A DNA stretch of 64,000 nucleotides, taken from contig NZ_OY781470.1 of the NCBI RefSeq assembly GCF_963676935.1, positions 124,001 to 188,000 on the forward strand, given 5' to 3'. Positions 7,708 to 52,346 of this stretch are shown here, in pieces. The position numbers were made by a program, and so were the translations under genes. Each line of letters begins with the position of its first letter. Positions within the stretch are counted from its first letter, which is position 1. The stretch comes from Halarcobacter sp. GTDB lineage: Bacteria > Campylobacterota > Campylobacteria > Campylobacterales > Arcobacteraceae. The notes under the pieces are model-generated. The model ran no database searches, had not been told where the DNA came from, and saw only the letters and a list, made by a program, of their open reading frames with translations.

Positions 7708-9066
<1,359 letters not shown>

Positions 9067-9070
9067 GCCA

Positions 9071-9109
9071 AAGTTTCTTAAGGAGTTTCCTTGAGAAACT
9101 TTTTATTTT
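9071..9109 (+). terminator. rho-independent terminator of thiC
   Basis: A long imperfect stem pairs AAGTTTCT (from 9071) with AGAAACTT (ending about 9102), with the inner AAGG/CCTT pairs extending it. It is followed by a T-rich run (TTTATTTT). Confidence 0.85.
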
Positions 9110-9144
9110 AGTGGTAATTAAGACAAAAATTATCCTATTTAATT

Positions 9145-9150
9145 TATAAT
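9145..9150 (+). promoter_or_regulatory. -10 element upstream of mrp
   Basis: A TATAAT hexamer lies 31 bases before the mrp ATG in an AT-rich leader. There is no convincing -35. A Shine-Dalgarno-like AAGGAAAA precedes the start. Confidence 0.45.
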
Positions 9151-9181
9151 ACGAAAATATTAAAGAATATAAGGAAAATAT

Positions 9182-10345
9182 ATGGCAACTATAGCTGATA
9201 TAAATGATAAATTAACGAAAGTTTTATATCCAGGGTTCCAAAAATCAATTATGGACTTTGGATTTGTAAAAGATGTACAAGTCGAAGACAATAATTGTAT
9301 TATTGTTTTAGATATTACATCAAGTGCACCAGAAGTAGAAGAGCAATTAAAAAAGGATATTTCTGCTGTATTAACTGACACAGTATCAAATGTAGAGATT
9401 AGAATTACAAAACCTGAAGCTCCAAAACAACAAAGTAATAGTACGAGCGGGCAAAATATAGCTCCACAAATTAAAAACTTTGTAATGGTAAGTTCAGGAA
9501 AAGGTGGAGTTGGAAAATCTACTACAACTGTTAACTTAGCAGTTGCTGCAGCGATGCAAGGAAAAAAAGTTGGTATCTTAGATGCTGATATTTATGGACC
9601 AAATATCCCTAGAATGATGGGAATATCAGGAAAAGAAGTAGAAATCGTAGGAAACAAAGCTAAGCCATTTAATGCATATGGCGTTGATGTAATGTCAATG
9701 GGTTCATTAATGGATGAAGGTCATGCACTAATCTGGAGAGGTGCGATGATTATGAAAGCTGTACAACAACTTCTAAGAGATATTCTATGGGAAGAGTTAG
9801 ATATTTTATTTATTGATATGCCTCCTGGAACTGGTGATGCACAATTAACAATCGCTCAAAGTGTTCCTGTAACATGTGGTGTAAATGTAACAACTCCTCA
9901 ACATGTAGCTTTAGATGATTCAAGAAGATCTTTAGATATGTTTAAAAAACTTCATATCCCAATCGCAGGCATCATTGAAAATATGAGTGGATTTATTTGT
10001 CCTGAATGTAATAGCGAATCTGATATTTTTGGAATGGGAACTTGTGAACCTTTAGCTGAACAATATAATACGCAAGTTTTAGGGAATCTTCCAATTGAAC
10101 CTGCAATTAGAGAGGGTGGAGATTCTGGTAAGCCAATTGTGTACTGTAACCCTGAATCAGAATCTGCAAAAAGATATATGAGTACAACAGCTAAACTTTT
10201 AGCATATATTGATGAGGTTAGTTCAACTGCTTCAAATGCAGAGATTCAACCAACTACACCTCCTGGTGTATCAGCTTGTTCTACTGCTGGTGCATCATCA
10301 CAACAATCTTCACACTCTGGTGGAAGTTGTGGTTGTGGTAACTAA
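9182..10345 (+). CDS. mrp: Mrp/NBP35-family Fe-S cluster carrier ATPase
   Basis: A 387-aa P-loop ATPase of the Mrp/ApbC family, a scaffold and carrier that delivers Fe-S clusters to apoproteins in the cytoplasm. Residues 1-95 form a MIP18/DUF59-like domain. The deviant Walker A GKGGVGKS is at residues 106-113, the Walker B-like IDMPPGTGD follows, and the cluster-binding pair C273-PE-C276 is present. The C-terminus ends in a Ser/Gly-rich tail with SCGCGN, an extra possible metal-binding site. Many clients are encoded nearby in this window (PorD, NifJ, PsrA/B, LeuC, ThiC). It is followed by its own terminator. Confidence 0.95.
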   Translation: MATIADINDKLTKVLYPGFQKSIMDFGFVKDVQVEDNNCIIVLDITSSAPEVEEQLKKDISAVLTDTVSNVEIRITKPEAPKQQSNSTSGQNIAPQIKNFVMVSSGKGGVGKSTTTVNLAVAAAMQGKKVGILDADIYGPNIPRMMGISGKEVEIVGNKAKPFNAYGVDVMSMGSLMDEGHALIWRGAMIMKAVQQLLRDILWEELDILFIDMPPGTGDAQLTIAQSVPVTCGVNVTTPQHVALDDSRRSLDMFKKLHIPIAGIIENMSGFICPECNSESDIFGMGTCEPLAEQYNTQVLGNLPIEPAIREGGDSGKPIVYCNPESESAKRYMSTTAKLLAYIDEVSSTASNAEIQPTTPPGVSACSTAGASSQQSSHSGGSCGCGN

Positions 10346-20488: not shown

Positions 20489-22002
20489 AAGGGGTAGTTG
20501 CAGCTGGAGATAAAAACTCTGCACAAGCAGGAGCTGATATTTTAAAGGAGGGTGGAAATGCATATGATGCTGCATTAGCAGTTATGTTAGCTGCACCAAT
20601 ATGTGAACCCCTTTTTACATCTCTTGGAGGTGGAGGGTTCCTTTTAGGATTAGAAAAAGGTAAAAAAGCAGAGCTTTTTGATTTCTTTGTTGAGGTACCT
20701 AAAAAAAGAATAGATGAGCCAGAGTTTTATCCAATATATGTAGATTTTGGTTCAGCTGTTCAAGAGTTTCATATAGGCTCGGGTTCAGTTGCCATTCCTG
20801 GACTTGTAGAAGGGATATATCAAGTTCATAAAGAAAAAGGAACTTTGCCTTTATCTAAGATAATAGAACCAGCAGTTAGATATGCAAGAAAAGGGATATA
20901 TCTTTCTAAAATGCAAGCAAGTTTTGTAAAGCTTTTAGAACCAATTTTTACATCAACAAAATCTTCTATGAATGTATATGGAAAAGATGAAAAAAATCTA
21001 ATAGATGATAAGCATCTGTTTAAAAATCCAAATTATGCTGATTTTCTTGAAGCTTTTGCAAAAGAGGGCAGTAGACTTTTTTATGAAGGTGAAGTTGCAA
21101 ATGAGATAGAAAAGATATCAAAAGAGAATGATGGCTTGATTTTAAAAGAGGATTTAAAAAACTATAAATGTATTAAAAGGGAACCCATAGATTTTAGATA
21201 TAAAGATTATGAAATAATAACTAATCCACCTCCAAGTGGAGGAGGAATCTTAATAGCTTTTACAATGAAGCTTTTAGAAGAGTATGATTTAAAAGATTTT
21301 AGAAGTTATGAGTATGTAAAAGGGCTTATTGAAGCTTTTAGTACAACTAGTGATTTTAGAACAGAAAAGGTTGATGAGTTTTTACACGATGAAAACTTGA
21401 AAAATATATTATCAAATGAGAGACTTATTAAAAATTATTGTACAACCATGAGCAGTAGGTTGAATCTTTGGGGAAATACAACCCACCTTTCTGTAATAGA
21501 TGAACTAGGTAATGCAGTATCAGTCACCACAACAAATGGGGAAGGTTCAGGGCATGTAATACCAAGTTCTGGAATAATGTTAAATAATATGATGGGGGAA
21601 GAAGACTTAAACCCACATGGTTGGTTTGCTTGGGATGAGGGGATTAGGCTTCCATCAATGATGGCTCCAACGGCAGTTTTAAAAGATGGAATACCTAAAT
21701 TGATTTTGGGAAGTGCTGGAAGTAATAGGATTCGTTCAGCAATTGTTTCTACTATGATAAATAATTTGGAGTATGGTAAAAACTTACATGAAAGTATTAA
21801 CTCTCCTAGAATTCATTATGAGAAAGGTACAGTTTGTATGGAGCCTAGTTGTGATGAAAAAATAAGAAAAGAGTTAGAAAAACATTATAAGCTACAATAT
21901 TTTGATGATTTGAACCTATTTTTTGGTGGTGTTCAAGCTGTAAATGATGATTTAGAGGGGGGATGTGACTTAAGAAGGGGTGCGGCAGTTATAAAGGTTT
22001 GA
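20485..22002 (+). CDS. cytoplasmic GGT-family Ntn hydrolase, atypical gamma-glutamyltransferase
   Basis: A 505-aa gamma-glutamyltranspeptidase homologue without a signal peptide, so it should act in the cytoplasm, unlike classic periplasmic GGT. The autocleavage site and nucleophile are Thr332 in NTTHLSVIDELGNAVS. The glycine-rich loops SLGGGGFL, PPPSGGG and LILGSAGSNRI are kept. At the site where E. coli Arg114 binds the gamma-glutamyl carboxylate (DFRE..P), this protein has Phe68 in FDFFVEVP, so substrate recognition must differ. It overlaps the ligase stop by four bases and its 3' end overlaps a convergent gene by 33 bases. The exact substrate is unknown. Confidence 0.85.
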   Translation: MKGVVAAGDKNSAQAGADILKEGGNAYDAALAVMLAAPICEPLFTSLGGGGFLLGLEKGKKAELFDFFVEVPKKRIDEPEFYPIYVDFGSAVQEFHIGSGSVAIPGLVEGIYQVHKEKGTLPLSKIIEPAVRYARKGIYLSKMQASFVKLLEPIFTSTKSSMNVYGKDEKNLIDDKHLFKNPNYADFLEAFAKEGSRLFYEGEVANEIEKISKENDGLILKEDLKNYKCIKREPIDFRYKDYEIITNPPPSGGGILIAFTMKLLEEYDLKDFRSYEYVKGLIEAFSTTSDFRTEKVDEFLHDENLKNILSNERLIKNYCTTMSSRLNLWGNTTHLSVIDELGNAVSVTTTNGEGSGHVIPSSGIMLNNMMGEEDLNPHGWFAWDEGIRLPSMMAPTAVLKDGIPKLILGSAGSNRIRSAIVSTMINNLEYGKNLHESINSPRIHYEKGTVCMEPSCDEKIRKELEKHYKLQYFDDLNLFFGGVQAVNDDLEGGCDLRRGAAVIKV

Positions 22003-22806
22003 TTTTAAATCTATACCTAAATGGATTTTTGAGAATTTAATAACTGCTTTTACAAAAGTTTTTGCGCATTTTTTTCTATTTTTTTTAGAATCTCGACAGT
22101 TTTTATATGGAAATTCCACTTGAATACCATTTATAACTCCCCCATCCAAAGAGCCATATTTAAAAGTATTAAAAGCTCCCTCAAAATAGTTTTCATCTTT
22201 TGTATATGGTATATGTTTTGAAGGGATTGATTTAAATCCTTTTTTTGACATTAATGAACCTAAAGAGTTTTTCCCTTTTACTTGTTTAATAAAAGATTTT
22301 GATGAAAAGTTTGACAAGGTTTTTATACTTGAACTATTTTTGTATTTTTTTAGTCTTTTTTTCTTTAGTTTTAAAATATCATTATTAAGTAAGTATCCAA
22401 ACTCAATAAACCCATGGGAGTGGGATTGTCCATGTATATCAAAATATAAACCTTTTTTAAACTCTTTTCTTACTTGTACCCTTGCTTTTTTTATTAGTGA
22501 ATGAAATTGATTATATGCAATACTAGCTTTTTCATCAAAAAAGGCATCTGTTATATTACGATTAATATCTACTTTTTCTCTAGAGATTGTAGCTATAACA
22601 CAATAAGGAGTTTTATTTACTTGCTTTTGAAACTGTTTTATAATCTCTTCTGTTAGTTCAAAGGTAAAATCATCTTTTTCAAATATACCTTTTTTTCTAG
22701 TTTTTATATCAGTGGGTTTTTCATCTCCACCATGGGGAGCACTTAGTATAATTGGAAGGTTACCCTCATAATATTTTACATAGTTTTTTGTGGAGTTATT
22801 AGTCAT
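21970..22806 (-). CDS. N-formylglutamate amidohydrolase-like protein
   Basis: A 278-aa protein of the HutG2/N-formylglutamate amidohydrolase family, zinc hydrolases that act on N-acyl glutamate-like bonds. Key stretches are LPIILSAPHGGDEKP at the N-terminus, ISREKVDINRNI and the zinc-binding YFDIHGQSHSHGFIEFG in the middle, with VQEF-like VEFPYKNCRD later. The substrate is not known. Its start lies inside the 3' end of mnmC (8-base overlap) and its own 3' end overlaps the convergent GGT gene, so it may belong to the same gamma-glutamyl theme. Confidence 0.8.
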   Translation of the reverse strand: MTNNSTKNYVKYYEGNLPIILSAPHGGDEKPTDIKTRKKGIFEKDDFTFELTEEIIKQFQKQVNKTPYCVIATISREKVDINRNITDAFFDEKASIAYNQFHSLIKKARVQVRKEFKKGLYFDIHGQSHSHGFIEFGYLLNNDILKLKKKRLKKYKNSSSIKTLSNFSSKSFIKQVKGKNSLGSLMSKKGFKSIPSKHIPYTKDENYFEGAFNTFKYGSLDGGVINGIQVEFPYKNCRDSKKNRKKCAKTFVKAVIKFSKIHLGIDLKSNLYNCRTPS

Positions 22807-23530
22807 ATATAGCTTTTGCTTCTTTATTTCTTTGTTGTTTTAGTTCCATATCAATATATTTTGCATCAAACTCTTTTTTTGCTTTTAGGGCTATTGTTTG
22901 TTTTTTCTTTCCAATTGGATTTATCTCATAGATCTCAAACCCAGCTTTATATAAAGAGAGTCTTACCTTTGTGGCAACGGAATAGGTGGTTAGGATACAA
23001 TCTTTATTTGTGGCTTTATATATATCTTTAAAATATTCTACACTCCAAAGTTCACTGTTTACTTCACTTGAAAAAGCATCTTGATAAACTATATCAATAC
23101 CATCTAATTTTTTTATATATTCCCTTGCATCACCTATAAAAAGTTCAATTTTTATATGTTCATCTTCATATTTTTTATCTTTAAGAAGTTTATTTATAAT
23201 ATCTTTTATCCCATCAAACTCTTTTGGATACTCAAAATCTTTTAATGACTCAATAAGTTCTAAATCAAGTTCAGGACTAAAGATATTTAGCTTTTTATCC
23301 AATTTTTCTTTTTTTAGATAATAGATTGTGGTAAAGGTGTTATATCCTATTCCAAAACAGATATCTAAAATATTTAATTGATCTTTTTTATGATAGGAAA
23401 AAGCAGGGATAATATGTTTTACCAAAGATTCATTTATAGCACCTGTTTTTATATCATGAAAGTGTTGATTGTATTTACTTGAATAAAGTGTTTTTGTACC
23501 ATCAGATGTGGTTATAAAATTATCTTTTAT
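22799..23530 (-). CDS. mnmC: MnmC-like tRNA U34 methyltransferase with apparent ATA start
   Basis: A SAM methyltransferase resembling the MnmC methyl-transfer domain, which finishes mnm5s2U34 in tRNA. The first conventional start is TTG at 23425, but the conserved N-terminus lies upstream of it in the same frame: TSDGTKTLYSSKYNQHFHD then GAINESLVKHIIPAF. SAM motif ILDICFGIGYNTF and the IVYQDAFSSEVNSELWS block follow. In the open stretch above 23425 there is no ATG, GTG or TTG before an in-frame TAA. The only site with a ribosome binding site (AAAAAAGGA, 5-base gap) is ATA at 23530, giving 243 aa. The FAD domain of E. coli MnmC is absent, as in other short forms. Confidence 0.8.
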   Translation of the reverse strand: MKDNFITTSDGTKTLYSSKYNQHFHDIKTGAINESLVKHIIPAFSYHKKDQLNILDICFGIGYNTFTTIYYLKKEKLDKKLNIFSPELDLELIESLKDFEYPKEFDGIKDIINKLLKDKKYEDEHIKIELFIGDAREYIKKLDGIDIVYQDAFSSEVNSELWSVEYFKDIYKATNKDCILTTYSVATKVRLSLYKAGFEIYEINPIGKKKQTIALKAKKEFDAKYIDMELKQQRNKEAKAIYD

Positions 23531-23697
23531 ATATATCCTTTTTTAAATTTTATTTTCACATATATTTGCTTTTAAATCTCTTTGTGTTTGATAAGCTATT
23601 TAATTCTTGTGAAATTGTTTTTACTGTTTATATTTCATGATAAATTTAGGTCTTTATATGTTATTATTAATTTTAATATATCTATTTCATATTTTAA
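23531..23697. other. divergent intergenic region between mnmC and the CheB-CheR gene
   Basis: AT-rich, about 165 bases, between two divergent genes. No clear promoter, palindrome, RNA or small gene is seen. Confidence 0.5.
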
Positions 23698-23724
23698 ATG
23701 ATAGATTTTGGGGATATATACAAA

Positions 23725-46482: not shown

Positions 46483-46510
46483 ATTACAAAATGGTTACAG
46501 TAAAGTTACA
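46483..46510 (-). promoter_or_regulatory. Pho-box-like triple direct repeat before pstC
   Basis: On the minus strand TGTAAC, TGTAAC and TGTAAT occur with an exact 11-bp period, 33 to 60 bases before the pstC start. This is the geometry PhoB-type regulators use. The first repeat overlaps the 3' end of the EAL-CBS-GGDDF gene. Confidence 0.65.
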
Positions 46511-48221
46511 TATTTATGCAGATACCAAAAGGTTTATCTATAGATTTAGATCTTTTTTTAATCTCTCCAAGTTTTGAGTTAAAGTTTTCAATGCTACTTT
46601 GTTTAGTTACTTCAATAATAGATGCTGAGACACTTAAAAGTTTGAATTCTCTAATAGTTCCATATCTATCTTTTGCAGTAATATGTCCATTTTTTAAATC
46701 ATTTTCATTATAAAGGCTTTGTACATTGTGTTCAAACTCTTTTTGTATGTTAAAAATTATATTATATACATTTTCATAACTCATATTTACAAAACCTACA
46801 AAAAAATCATCTCCTCCAATATGTGCAATAAAACTCTCCCTTGAAAGGTATTTTTGAAGTATTTCTGAAAACATTAAAATAGCTCTATCCCCTAGTCTAA
46901 ATCCATAAGTATCATTAAAAGGTTTAAAATCATTAAAATCAAAATATATGATTTGAGCTTGTATTTTTTTATCAAAAATATTGTAGATGAAATCATCAAT
47001 TTGATTATTTCCAGGTAGTTTAGTAAGTGGGTTTTGATTTTCAGCAATTTCAATATTTCTTTTATAAGATAAAAGTAGGAGATTATTTAGGCTTATAAAA
47101 CCATAATAGATTGAATCTTTACTTACAAATATACCTTTTGCATCATTTCTTAGATTAAAAATCTCTAAAGCCTTATCTATTCCCCAACTTATATCAATCT
47201 CAGGAACAGCTTGTAAATAGTGTTTAAGTTTTGCTTTAAAAGATTGGTTTTTTGCAAGGGATAAACCATATTGAGAATAAGATATCTTCTTAATGTCTAC
47301 TTCATATATGGCACCTAAAATTTTCTTTTCAGAATTTACTACTGGTACAAATGTATTTTTTGTATGCTCTTTAAAATAGATAAAAAGGTCATGCAAGGAG
47401 GAGTCATCAGATATTGCATCAACTTTTTCAATAAAAGACTTGTCAATATTATTGCTTAATACTCTTCTATCTTTTTTAAAAAAGCTTCTACCTTTATAAC
47501 TCTTTTTTATTTCAGTTATATCTATTGTAGGTCTGCAAAAAAGGTAACCTTGTAGGTAATCAACTTTTATATCTTTGCAAGTTAAATATTCTTCTACTCT
47601 TTCTATACCTTCTGCTATAACTTTTATCCCCATTGTATGTGCCATTTCAACTATAGAGGAACAAAAAAGTCTCTTTTTGGGGTCTTTATCAATATATGAG
47701 ATAAAAAATTTATCAATCTTTACAAAGTTTGTATCTGATATATAAAGTAGATGTAAACCAGAAACGCCAGTACCAAAGTCATCAATTGCTGTTTTAATAT
47801 CGTTTTGATTATAATTTTTTATCGATTCTTGTAGATTTTTTTCATCTTTAAAGAGATTATGTTCTGTTAATTCAAAACATAACTTATCAGGTTTTATATC
47901 TAACTCTTCTAGGATTTCTAATGTTTTACCTAGTTTCTTATTTGGCATGTTAAAAACTCTATTATCAAGATTATAGAAGATTTTGATATTTGGAATATCA
48001 ATTTTTTTAAATTTTTTTAAAGCTTTTTTTCTTAATTTAATATCACAATTATAAAGTATTTCCTCTTTTGCTAGATAATCGAAGAAACTATTTATTGAGT
48101 TAAAGCCAAGCTCTTTACAGTTTCTAAGAAGTGCCTCAACTGCAAATGTTTTACCTGAATTAGTATTGATGATTGGTTGAAAGGCAAAATCAAGTTTACC
48201 TATATCGAGTTTATCTTCTAT
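46506..48221 (-). CDS. EAL-CBS-CBS-GGDDF cyclic-di-GMP protein with apparent ATA start
   Basis: About 571 aa. The EAL domain (about 15-245) keeps the catalytic set: EALLR, FYNLDNR, FELTE, DDFGTG, KIDKFF, AEGIE and QGYLFCRP. Two CBS motifs (about 265-395) follow, then a GGDEF-type domain with GGDDF in place of GG(D/E)EF, so cyclase activity is doubtful. The first ATG (47948) lies inside the EAL domain and would remove EALLR. Upstream the frame is open to a TAA near 48231 with no ATG, GTG or TTG. TTAAGG followed seven bases later by ATA at 48221 is the only plausible start. It probably degrades c-di-GMP, and it lies inside the phosphate regulon. Confidence 0.8.
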   Translation of the reverse strand: MEDKLDIGKLDFAFQPIINTNSGKTFAVEALLRNCKELGFNSINSFFDYLAKEEILYNCDIKLRKKALKKFKKIDIPNIKIFYNLDNRVFNMPNKKLGKTLEILEELDIKPDKLCFELTEHNLFKDEKNLQESIKNYNQNDIKTAIDDFGTGVSGLHLLYISDTNFVKIDKFFISYIDKDPKKRLFCSSIVEMAHTMGIKVIAEGIERVEEYLTCKDIKVDYLQGYLFCRPTIDITEIKKSYKGRSFFKKDRRVLSNNIDKSFIEKVDAISDDSSLHDLFIYFKEHTKNTFVPVVNSEKKILGAIYEVDIKKISYSQYGLSLAKNQSFKAKLKHYLQAVPEIDISWGIDKALEIFNLRNDAKGIFVSKDSIYYGFISLNNLLLLSYKRNIEIAENQNPLTKLPGNNQIDDFIYNIFDKKIQAQIIYFDFNDFKPFNDTYGFRLGDRAILMFSEILQKYLSRESFIAHIGGDDFFVGFVNMSYENVYNIIFNIQKEFEHNVQSLYNENDLKNGHITAKDRYGTIREFKLLSVSASIIEVTKQSSIENFNSKLGEIKKRSKSIDKPFGICINM

Positions 48222-48241
48222 TTTTTTGCCTTAATTTAGAC

Positions 48242-50646: not shown

Positions 50647-50907
50647 TTATATAGCATTTACTTTTGCTTGTAATCTACTAACTTTTCTTGCTGCATTACC
50701 TTTTTTAAGGATACCTTTTGAAACACAGTGGTGAATATATTTGTTAGCAGCTTTCATTGCTTCAGCAGCTTTATCTTTATCAGTAGCTTCGATAGCAACT
50801 AACACATCTTTTGTTACATTTTTGATTCTAGTTTTGTAAAATCTGTTTCTTTCAGTTTTTACCTTAGTTTGTCTTGCTCTTTTTTCAGCAGATTTATGAT
50901 TTGCCAT
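50647..50907 (-). CDS. rpsT: 30S ribosomal protein S20 (bS20)
   Basis: 86 aa, full length, basic and helical. [14 protein letters not shown] at the N-terminus and the [21 protein letters not shown] block are diagnostic. It lies upstream of prfA in the S20-RF1 arrangement common in Campylobacterota, and is divergent from glmM. Confidence 0.97.
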
Positions 50908-51011
50908 ATTAATTTAACCTCTTTGTAAAATTTTTAAGGGTAGAATATTATCTAAATAACTTTAAAGTTAGTTTAAAATAAGGTAAGTTTAATAAAAAAG
51001 TAGGAAATTAT

Positions 51012-52346
51012 ATGAAACTATTTGGAACTGATGGAGTTCGTGGAAAAGCGGGCGATTTTTTAGATGCAATTACAGTATTAAAGTTAGCAAAAGCAGCTGG
51101 TATATATTTTAGAAAATTTTCAACTACAAATAAGATATTAGTTGGAAAAGATACTAGAAGAAGTGGTTATATGATTGAAAATGCACTTGTAAGTGGTTTA
51201 ACATCAGTTGGTTATGATGTTATACAAATAGGACCTATGCCTACACCTGCAATCGCATATTTAACTGAATCAATGAGATGTGATGGTGGAATAATGATAT
51301 CAGCTTCACATAACCCCTTTGAAGATAATGGGATTAAATTTTTTGATAATCATGGAGATAAGTTAAGTAGTACTTGTGAAGCAGAGATTGAAAAAATATT
51401 TCAAAATAGGGAATTGTTACAAGAAGAGGAAACAACGGGAAGAGACATAGGTTCTTCAAAAAGAATAGATGATGTTATAGGAAGATATATTGTATCAATT
51501 AAAAGTACTTTCCCTCAAGATTTAACATTAAAAAGTATTAGAATTGTTCTTGATTGTGCAAATGGTGCAGCATACAAAGTAGCTCCTACAATATTGGATG
51601 AGTTAGGTGCTGATGTAATTACAATTAATGATGAACCTAATGGTTATAATATAAATGAAAATTGTGGAGCTTTGCATCCTGAACAAGTTGGAAACTTAGT
51701 TAAAGAGTATAGAGCTGATATTGGAATAGCTCTTGATGGTGATGCTGATAGGCTTGTAGTTATTGATGAACAAGGTAATGTAGTTCATGGAGATAAACTA
51801 TTAGGGGCATTAGCTTTATTTTTAAAAGAAGAGAATATTTTAAAAGGTGAAGCTTGTGTTAGTACAGTTATGTCTAATAAAGCATTAGAAGATTTTTTAA
51901 ATTCACATGAACTTAAATTATTAAGATCTGATGTTGGTGATAAACATGTATTAGAACAAATGAAAAAGAATGGTATAAATTTTGGAGGGGAACAAAGTGG
52001 TCATATCATTTTCTCTGATGTTGCAAAAACTGGTGATGGTTTAGCTTCAGCTTTACAAGTATTAGCTTTGATGTTAAGAAGTAAGAAAAAAGCTAGTGAA
52101 ATATTAAATCCTTTTGATCTTTATCCTCAAATATTAGTTAATGTAAAAGTTACAGAAAAAAAACCACTAGATCAAATTGAAGGTTTAGAAGAATTACTAA
52201 ATAGTTTTAGGCAAAAAGGTATAAGAGATTTAATTAGATATTCAGGGACAGAAAACAAAATAAGACTTCTTTTAGAGGGTAAAGATAAAAAAGAGGTTGA
52301 AAAGTCAATGAAAGAATTAGAAAAATTTATTAAAAAATCTTTATGA
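51012..52346 (+). CDS. glmM: phosphoglucosamine mutase
   Basis: A 444-aa alpha-phosphohexomutase that turns GlcN-6-P into GlcN-1-P for peptidoglycan and LPS precursors. The start [12 protein letters not shown], the phospho-serine S99 in [17 protein letters not shown], the metal loop ALDGDADR, the sugar loop GGEQSGHI and the phosphate loop [15 protein letters not shown] are present. TAGGAAA precedes the ATG. Its TGA overlaps the lspA ATG. Confidence 0.97.

Follow-up and report, generated by a model that had tools for sequence, protein, structure and literature searches.

A proposed AUA start codon for mnmC in Halarcobacter sp., and AUA, AUC and AUU as candidate starts of other genes in the Arcobacteraceae

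The mnmC locus and its product

The window, the whole stretch of 64,000 nucleotides analysed here, comes from Halarcobacter sp. (contig NZ_OY781470.1, positions 124,001 to 188,000). On its minus strand lies mnmC, in which a conserved block precedes the first standard start codon (ATG, GTG or TTG). The features of the locus are listed below.

22799–23530, minus strand: mnmC, short MnmC2-like methyltransferase, 243 aa from ATA to stop (open frame, Pfam, 3vyw)
23528–23530, minus strand: ATA, proposed start codon of mnmC (placing relative to the Shine-Dalgarno sequence and to orthologous starts)
23531–23535, minus strand: TATAT, 5 nt spacer between AAAAAAGGA and the ATA (sequence)
23536–23544, minus strand: AAAAAAGGA, proposed Shine-Dalgarno (SD) sequence of mnmC (sequence; 5-base match AAGGA)
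23543–23545, minus strand: TAA, nearest upstream in-frame stop (sequence, open frame)
23426–23530, minus strand: 35 conserved codons 5' of the first standard start (codon-position identity, family matches)
23423–23425, minus strand: TTG, first ATG, GTG or TTG in the mnmC frame (frame reading)
23527–23559, minus strand: tiny frame from GTG to TAA in another frame, its stop overlapping the mnmC ATA as ATAA (sequence reading)

From position 23545, the minus strand reads TAA AAA AGG ATA TAT ATA AAA GAT AAT TTT; no further in-frame stop occurs before the one at 22799. Reading of this frame in the window gave no ATG, GTG or TTG between the TAA at 23545–23543 and the TTG at 23425, in agreement with the first-pass annotation; the arrangement it had described, AAAAAAGGA followed by a 5-base gap and ATA AAA GAT, is present at 23544–23528. 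The leader contains two in-frame ATA codons, at 23536 and 23530, and only the latter has a usable SD match (5 bases, AAGGA, against a score of 0 for ATA 23536). The motif AAGGA-N5/6-ATAAAAGA occurred once in the window versus 0.03 times expected in shuffled sequences, which is weak evidence because the motif was picked after the site was known. The fold of the start region was not stronger than that of shuffled sequences (z −0.24). Upstream of mnmC, nine promoter matches were counted on both strands versus 2.2 expected, all of them consensus matches only. A divergent gene with its start at 23698 faces mnmC. The last 8 nt of mnmC are shared with the gene that follows it (21970–22806, minus strand, 278 aa), for which a Pfam search returned no match.

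The protein read from the ATA matched Pfam Methyltransf_30 (E 1.5e-23, 83.4 bits versus a cut-off of 22), and the solved MnmC2 chain 3vyw aligned to its residues 6–214 (E 8.4e-26) with modest identity. The NCBIfam MnmC2 model NF033855 matched from residue 15 with 102.7 bits, under the curated cut-off of 136, so that the name MnmC2 rests on homology. The product is monofunctional, with 243 residues, one domain found and no fused FAD-dependent domain, and is predicted to be an MnmC2-like tRNA U34 methyltransferase. Set beside the monofunctional MnmC2 of PDB 3vyw, with which it has the N-terminal block in common, the protein seems unremarkable, the oddity being confined to the start codon of its gene.

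mnmC starts across the Arcobacteraceae

Identity within the 35-codon block was 0.844, 0.881 and 0.565 at codon positions 1, 2 and 3, respectively (105 pairs, 15 loci of the genus). By this pattern, that of translated DNA, the block is conserved coding sequence. The downstream part of the ungapped comparison was left unused because it was poor for the loci L001 and L015, probably owing to indels. Together with the alignment of 3vyw from residue 6, the conservation bears out the earlier statement that the conserved N-terminus is encoded 5' of TTG 23425.

Matches to mnmC were found in 16 of 16 genomes of the genus (the window's own included) and in 99 of 104 genomes of the family. The match reached query residue 6 or lower in 97 of the 99, the two exceptions being G056, where it is cut at the contig start, and G033, where it runs from residue 93 in a genome that is 54% complete. 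Orthologues starting at the TTG without the upstream block, which the first-pass annotation had named as evidence against its reading, were not seen. The mnmC of G049 (L034) contains one in-frame stop within the match, corresponding to a broken copy, a recoding event or an assembly fault.

Start codons were read in 91 of the 99 matching loci, using the DG[ST]xTL region as an anchor. A standard start lay 4–13 codons before this motif in 78 of them. Eight loci had no standard codon there (L001, which is the window, L003, L005, L015, L090, L095, L097 and L098), and five had only a GTG placed inside the conserved end of the upstream gene (L074, L088, L092, L094 and L100). All 13 loci without a usable-looking standard start showed an in-frame ATA at the start point, in 10 of them preceded by an SD match of 4 bases or more; L015, L090 and L098 had no SD match at the ATA. 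By comparison, ATA, ATT or ATC was found behind an SD in 6 of the 78 standard-start loci (Fisher p 2.9e-7), and the strict version, 5 of 8 versus 6 of 78, gave p 6e-4, both tests treating related loci as independent. The five loci in which only the upstream-gene GTG is present have one common context and are not independent. Here the mnmC ATA and the stop codon of the preceding gene form ATAA or ATAG, much as start and stop commonly combine in ATGA. Among the standard starts of mnmC, an SD match of at least 4 bases was present for 1 of 31 ATG, 9 of 40 TTG and 0 of 12 GTG; this general lack of an SD suggests translation coupled to the upstream gene.

Translation from TTG 23425, with the upstream block left untranslated, is very unlikely. 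This TTG is the first standard codon of the frame and the protein started there still scores 97.1 bits with the NCBIfam MnmC2 model, but it loses positions 1–34 of that model, and the block that it leaves out shows coding conservation, belongs to the solved MnmC2 fold and is itself preceded by a standard start in 78 of the 91 loci.

An exact replacement of the start codon was visible between relatives. In L015, the upstream stop and the ATA of mnmC are fused in TAATA; the corresponding bases are TAATG in L021 and TAGTG in L004. L004 belongs to G015, the genome closest to that of the window in the genes A, B and D described below (93, 95 and 89% identity, respectively), and its mnmC starts with GTG. 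A tree was built with 89 mnmC loci, L017 and one short frame being left out. The tips were labelled TTG (39), ATG (30), GTG (7) or no usable standard start (13). The last state required at least five changes on the tree; on well supported branches alone, a single origin of the ATA state is required, which weighs against the reading proposed here.

It is slightly less probable still that the ATA reflects faulty sequencing, or else a recent loss of the start by which the gene was silenced in this strain. A single change leads from ATG to ATA, and the genome is known from one assembly. Against this, the coding conservation of the block includes the window genome, an ATA without a standard start recurs in three other genomes of the genus as well as in other genera, and AUH-type starts (AUA, AUC or AUU; ATH in DNA) recur in other genes. 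Hardly to be expected is a third explanation, in which ribosomes translate the tiny frame from GTG 23559 and, through a −1 frameshift in the A-rich end of that frame, pass into mnmC. The frame GTG AAA ATA AAA TTT AAA AAA GGA TAT ATA TAA is present, and slipping back one base after AAA AAA would lead into mnmC; however, no SD was seen before the GTG, whereas the nearby ATA has one, and the other ATA-bearing genomes differ in their upstream sequence. The least credible alternative is a start at another non-standard codon 5' of ATA 23530, namely ATA 23536, AGG 23539 or AAA 23542, which are in frame after the stop but overlap or abut the SD (ATA 23536 having no SD match), while the orthologous genes start at or near the position of 23530.

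Other genes with candidate AUH starts

A comparison of 400 kb from each of six genomes of the genus yielded, among the candidates listed, five further families with ATA, ATC or ATT at the proposed start. They correspond to a Mem_trans transporter (gene A), a probable sensor kinase whose N-terminal half had no Pfam match and which resembles gene C (gene B), two kinases with HisKA and HATPase_c domains in Pfam (genes C and D) and an EAL/GGDEF gene (gene E). An AUH start was read in six of six genomes for each of A, B and C, in five of five for D (after removal of a G003 paralogue) and in three of six for E. Thus, the sensor-kinase-like genes B, C and D had AUA, AUC or AUU in all 17 orthologues read. 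Gene E lies in the window, and gene A elsewhere in the same genome.

46506–48221, minus strand: EAL/GGDEF gene, 571 aa from ATA (Pfam EAL at residues 3–231, GGDEF)
48219–48221, minus strand: ATA, proposed start codon of the EAL/GGDEF gene (genome comparison; 5-base SD match)
48229–48233, minus strand: TAAGG, SD-like, before this ATA (sequence)
Window genome, C1:23638–24552: Mem_trans transporter (Pfam; loci L224–L253 across genomes)

The start of the EAL/GGDEF gene is ATA in G000, G001 and G004, and ATG in G003, G014 and G002. Its first standard codon, ATG 47948, comes 91 codons after the ATA, and a gene called from there would lose 91 residues, about 40% of the EAL domain. The first-pass annotation had spoken of a second gene of this kind in the window, leaving it unnamed; the EAL/GGDEF gene, with its ATA at 48221, is the only one found.

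In the window genome, mnmC, D and E have no standard codon at all before the conserved region. Genes A and B have an in-frame TTG nearby, before or inside the SD spacer, which is not kept in all relatives. About six AUH-start genes were retained versus 245 genes compared in this genome, the candidates being sorted by eye. Of 12 candidates listed for it, mnmC, D and E were kept, and the other nine were dropped by eye as shadow frames or as cases in which a standard start soon follows a conserved leader or an overlap with another gene. A conserved stretch before a 165-aa gene (genome 37094–37591) looked like a leader and was also dropped. Two genes departed from ATG-bearing relatives in G003 only (stretch L164–L183): rsmA (50834–51631), with ATA, and a presumably AraC-like gene (8372–9184), with ATT.

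The search for single-column replacements returned mostly small shifts of a normal start among the contexts listed. When control codons were included, ATH was flagged in 6 of 224 clusters, three of which were real on inspection (197, 199 and 212). The control classes gave five clusters for AAH, two each for GAH and TTH, one each for AGH, GGH, GTH and TAH, and none for the other eight. Both GAH clusters corresponded to the codon beside ATH in 199 and 212, and in the three of the five AAH clusters inspected (2, 66 and 93) the flagged column was near a normal start or inside the gene. The column scan alone is weak because it does not separate ATH from AAH.

All 26 AUH starts of genes A–E in the six genomes had an SD match of at least 4 bases, and 20 of 26 had at least 5. 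The same scoring rule gave, for at least 4 bases, 3193 of 36,183 internal Ile codons (8.8%) and 71% of 1287 standard starts, and, for at least 5 bases, 2.4% and 40%, respectively. Because the AUH figure was taken from whichever of up to four neighbouring codons scored highest, a fair baseline lies above 8.8%.

The transporter is the clearest of the proposed AUH-start cases. Its start column contained ATC 17 times, ATA 10 times, ATT twice and ATG once in the 30 best loci of 92 matching genomes. The distance from the in-frame stop to this column is no more than three to five codons in several species, with no ATG, GTG or TTG among them. Two genomes of the same genus differ in the same context, G056 reading TAA AGT AAT ATT ATA GAA and G057 reading TAA AGT AAT ATT ATG GAA. 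The mix of start codons differs from the Ile usage (ATT.562, ATA.307, ATC.131; chi-square 58.6, relatives being counted as independent), which alone proves little because one internal Ile column of the transporter is also ATC-rich (15 of 30). We know of no other bacterial gene in which AUC is the commonest start. Among 398 genomes of the order, the pattern of the first codons was found in its ATH form in 10 genomes, all of the family itself, and in its DTG form in a single genome of another family, the pattern being strict and missing diverged homologues. The transporter of G007 (L233) shows one in-frame stop within the match, which may be a broken copy, a recoding event or an assembly fault.

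The comparison of starts between sister species, which had been suggested as a check, revealed a standard start at the homologous point for mnmC (L021 and L004), for the EAL/GGDEF gene (ATG in three of six) and for the transporter (ATG in G057). The suspected use of AUA in this lineage was supported by mnmC in G001, G008 and G012 and by the EAL/GGDEF gene, with AUA, AUC or AUU in four more families. In its scope, the suggestion needs to be widened: AUC and AUU belong with AUA, and about six genes rather than two are concerned in the 400 kb compared.

Proposed initiation at AUH codons and its significance

We propose, with a probability of about 0.86, that mnmC is translated from the AUA at 23530 and that this is one case of a wider, SD-helped use of AUH starts in the Arcobacteraceae. 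In this model, the SD located 5 nt upstream would position the 30S subunit at the AUA. The initiator tRNA would pair with the A and the U, the third base being tolerated, and the SD would offset the weak pairing. A good SD combined with a weak start would result in a low output, perhaps sensitive to IF3. A small set of genes of probably low output, comprising the sensor kinases, the EAL/GGDEF gene, the transporter and mnmC, would keep AUA, AUC or AUU in this way. The analysis shows the sequence facts, the conserved block, AUG, GUG or UUG at the homologous sites of relatives and the association with the SD; from these, we infer initiation of the ribosome at AUA, the tRNA used and the effect on expression. 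The role first suggested for AUA, to keep expression low, is likewise deduced by analogy; AUH starts probably hold low-abundance proteins low.

AUH starts as such are known. The infC and pcnB genes of E. coli start with AUU and are isolated cases. They resemble the present ones as chromosomal genes whose output a weak AUH start limits, but involve AUU only and do not form a gene set of the present kind. In Staphylococcus aureus, the accessible part of one report (PMC13009471) describes AUA starts for infC, ccpN and citZ and an AUU start for cvfC1, those of ccpN and cvfC1 being conserved between species. Reporters with AUA or AUU reached about 10% of the AUG output, and up to 30% for ccpN in rich medium (PMC13009471). 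The combination of an AUH start and a strong SD is common to both organisms, as far as that part of the report goes. It presents four sites in one organism with experimental proof, whereas about six genes in 400 kb of one genome, and in many species, are proposed here from the sequence. The present set also differs in including AUC, kinases and a transporter, and infC here apparently starts with TTG. In the accessible part of a translatome paper on Campylobacter jejuni (PMC11955535), the annotated starts are ATG, TTG and GTG, and AUA and AUU are absent from its main text. Among the matches listed from the open-licence literature, judged by titles and the beginnings of abstracts, none dealt with AUH starts in Arcobacter or Campylobacter. 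Within the literature searched, the novelty lies in the recurrence of such starts across conserved genes and species of one bacterial family.

IF3 was considered in this context. The infC gene (L113, genome C1:189639–190181, minus strand) has an apparent TTG start with a G-rich SD in six of six genomes, and an ATG follows about 11 codons on. The C-domain of the protein has E where the aligned solved chains have R (8jsg, 5lmn) or K (5me0), the stretch AIEFLEKG facing LIRFLEEG in chain 8jsg, which we take to be E. coli IF3. A tie between this glutamate and the tolerance of AUH codons is a lead only. The accessible part of an in-vitro study indicates that IF3 disfavours weak third-base pairs (PMC10158994). 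It is conceivable, although rather unlikely, that AUH-start genes form a conserved class in the Arcobacteraceae, numbering perhaps some tens in each genome by extrapolation from about six in 400 kb of the window genome, that they constitute a translation-level regulon read by the IF3:ribosome ratio, and that IF3 may have co-evolved towards tolerance of these starts.

Gene finders limited to ATG, GTG and TTG would truncate or miss the AUH-start genes. If these starts are real, AUA, AUC and AUU would be a conserved device of the Arcobacteraceae lineage, and natural gene sets, in place of single reporters, would become available for studying how IF3 discriminates between start codons.
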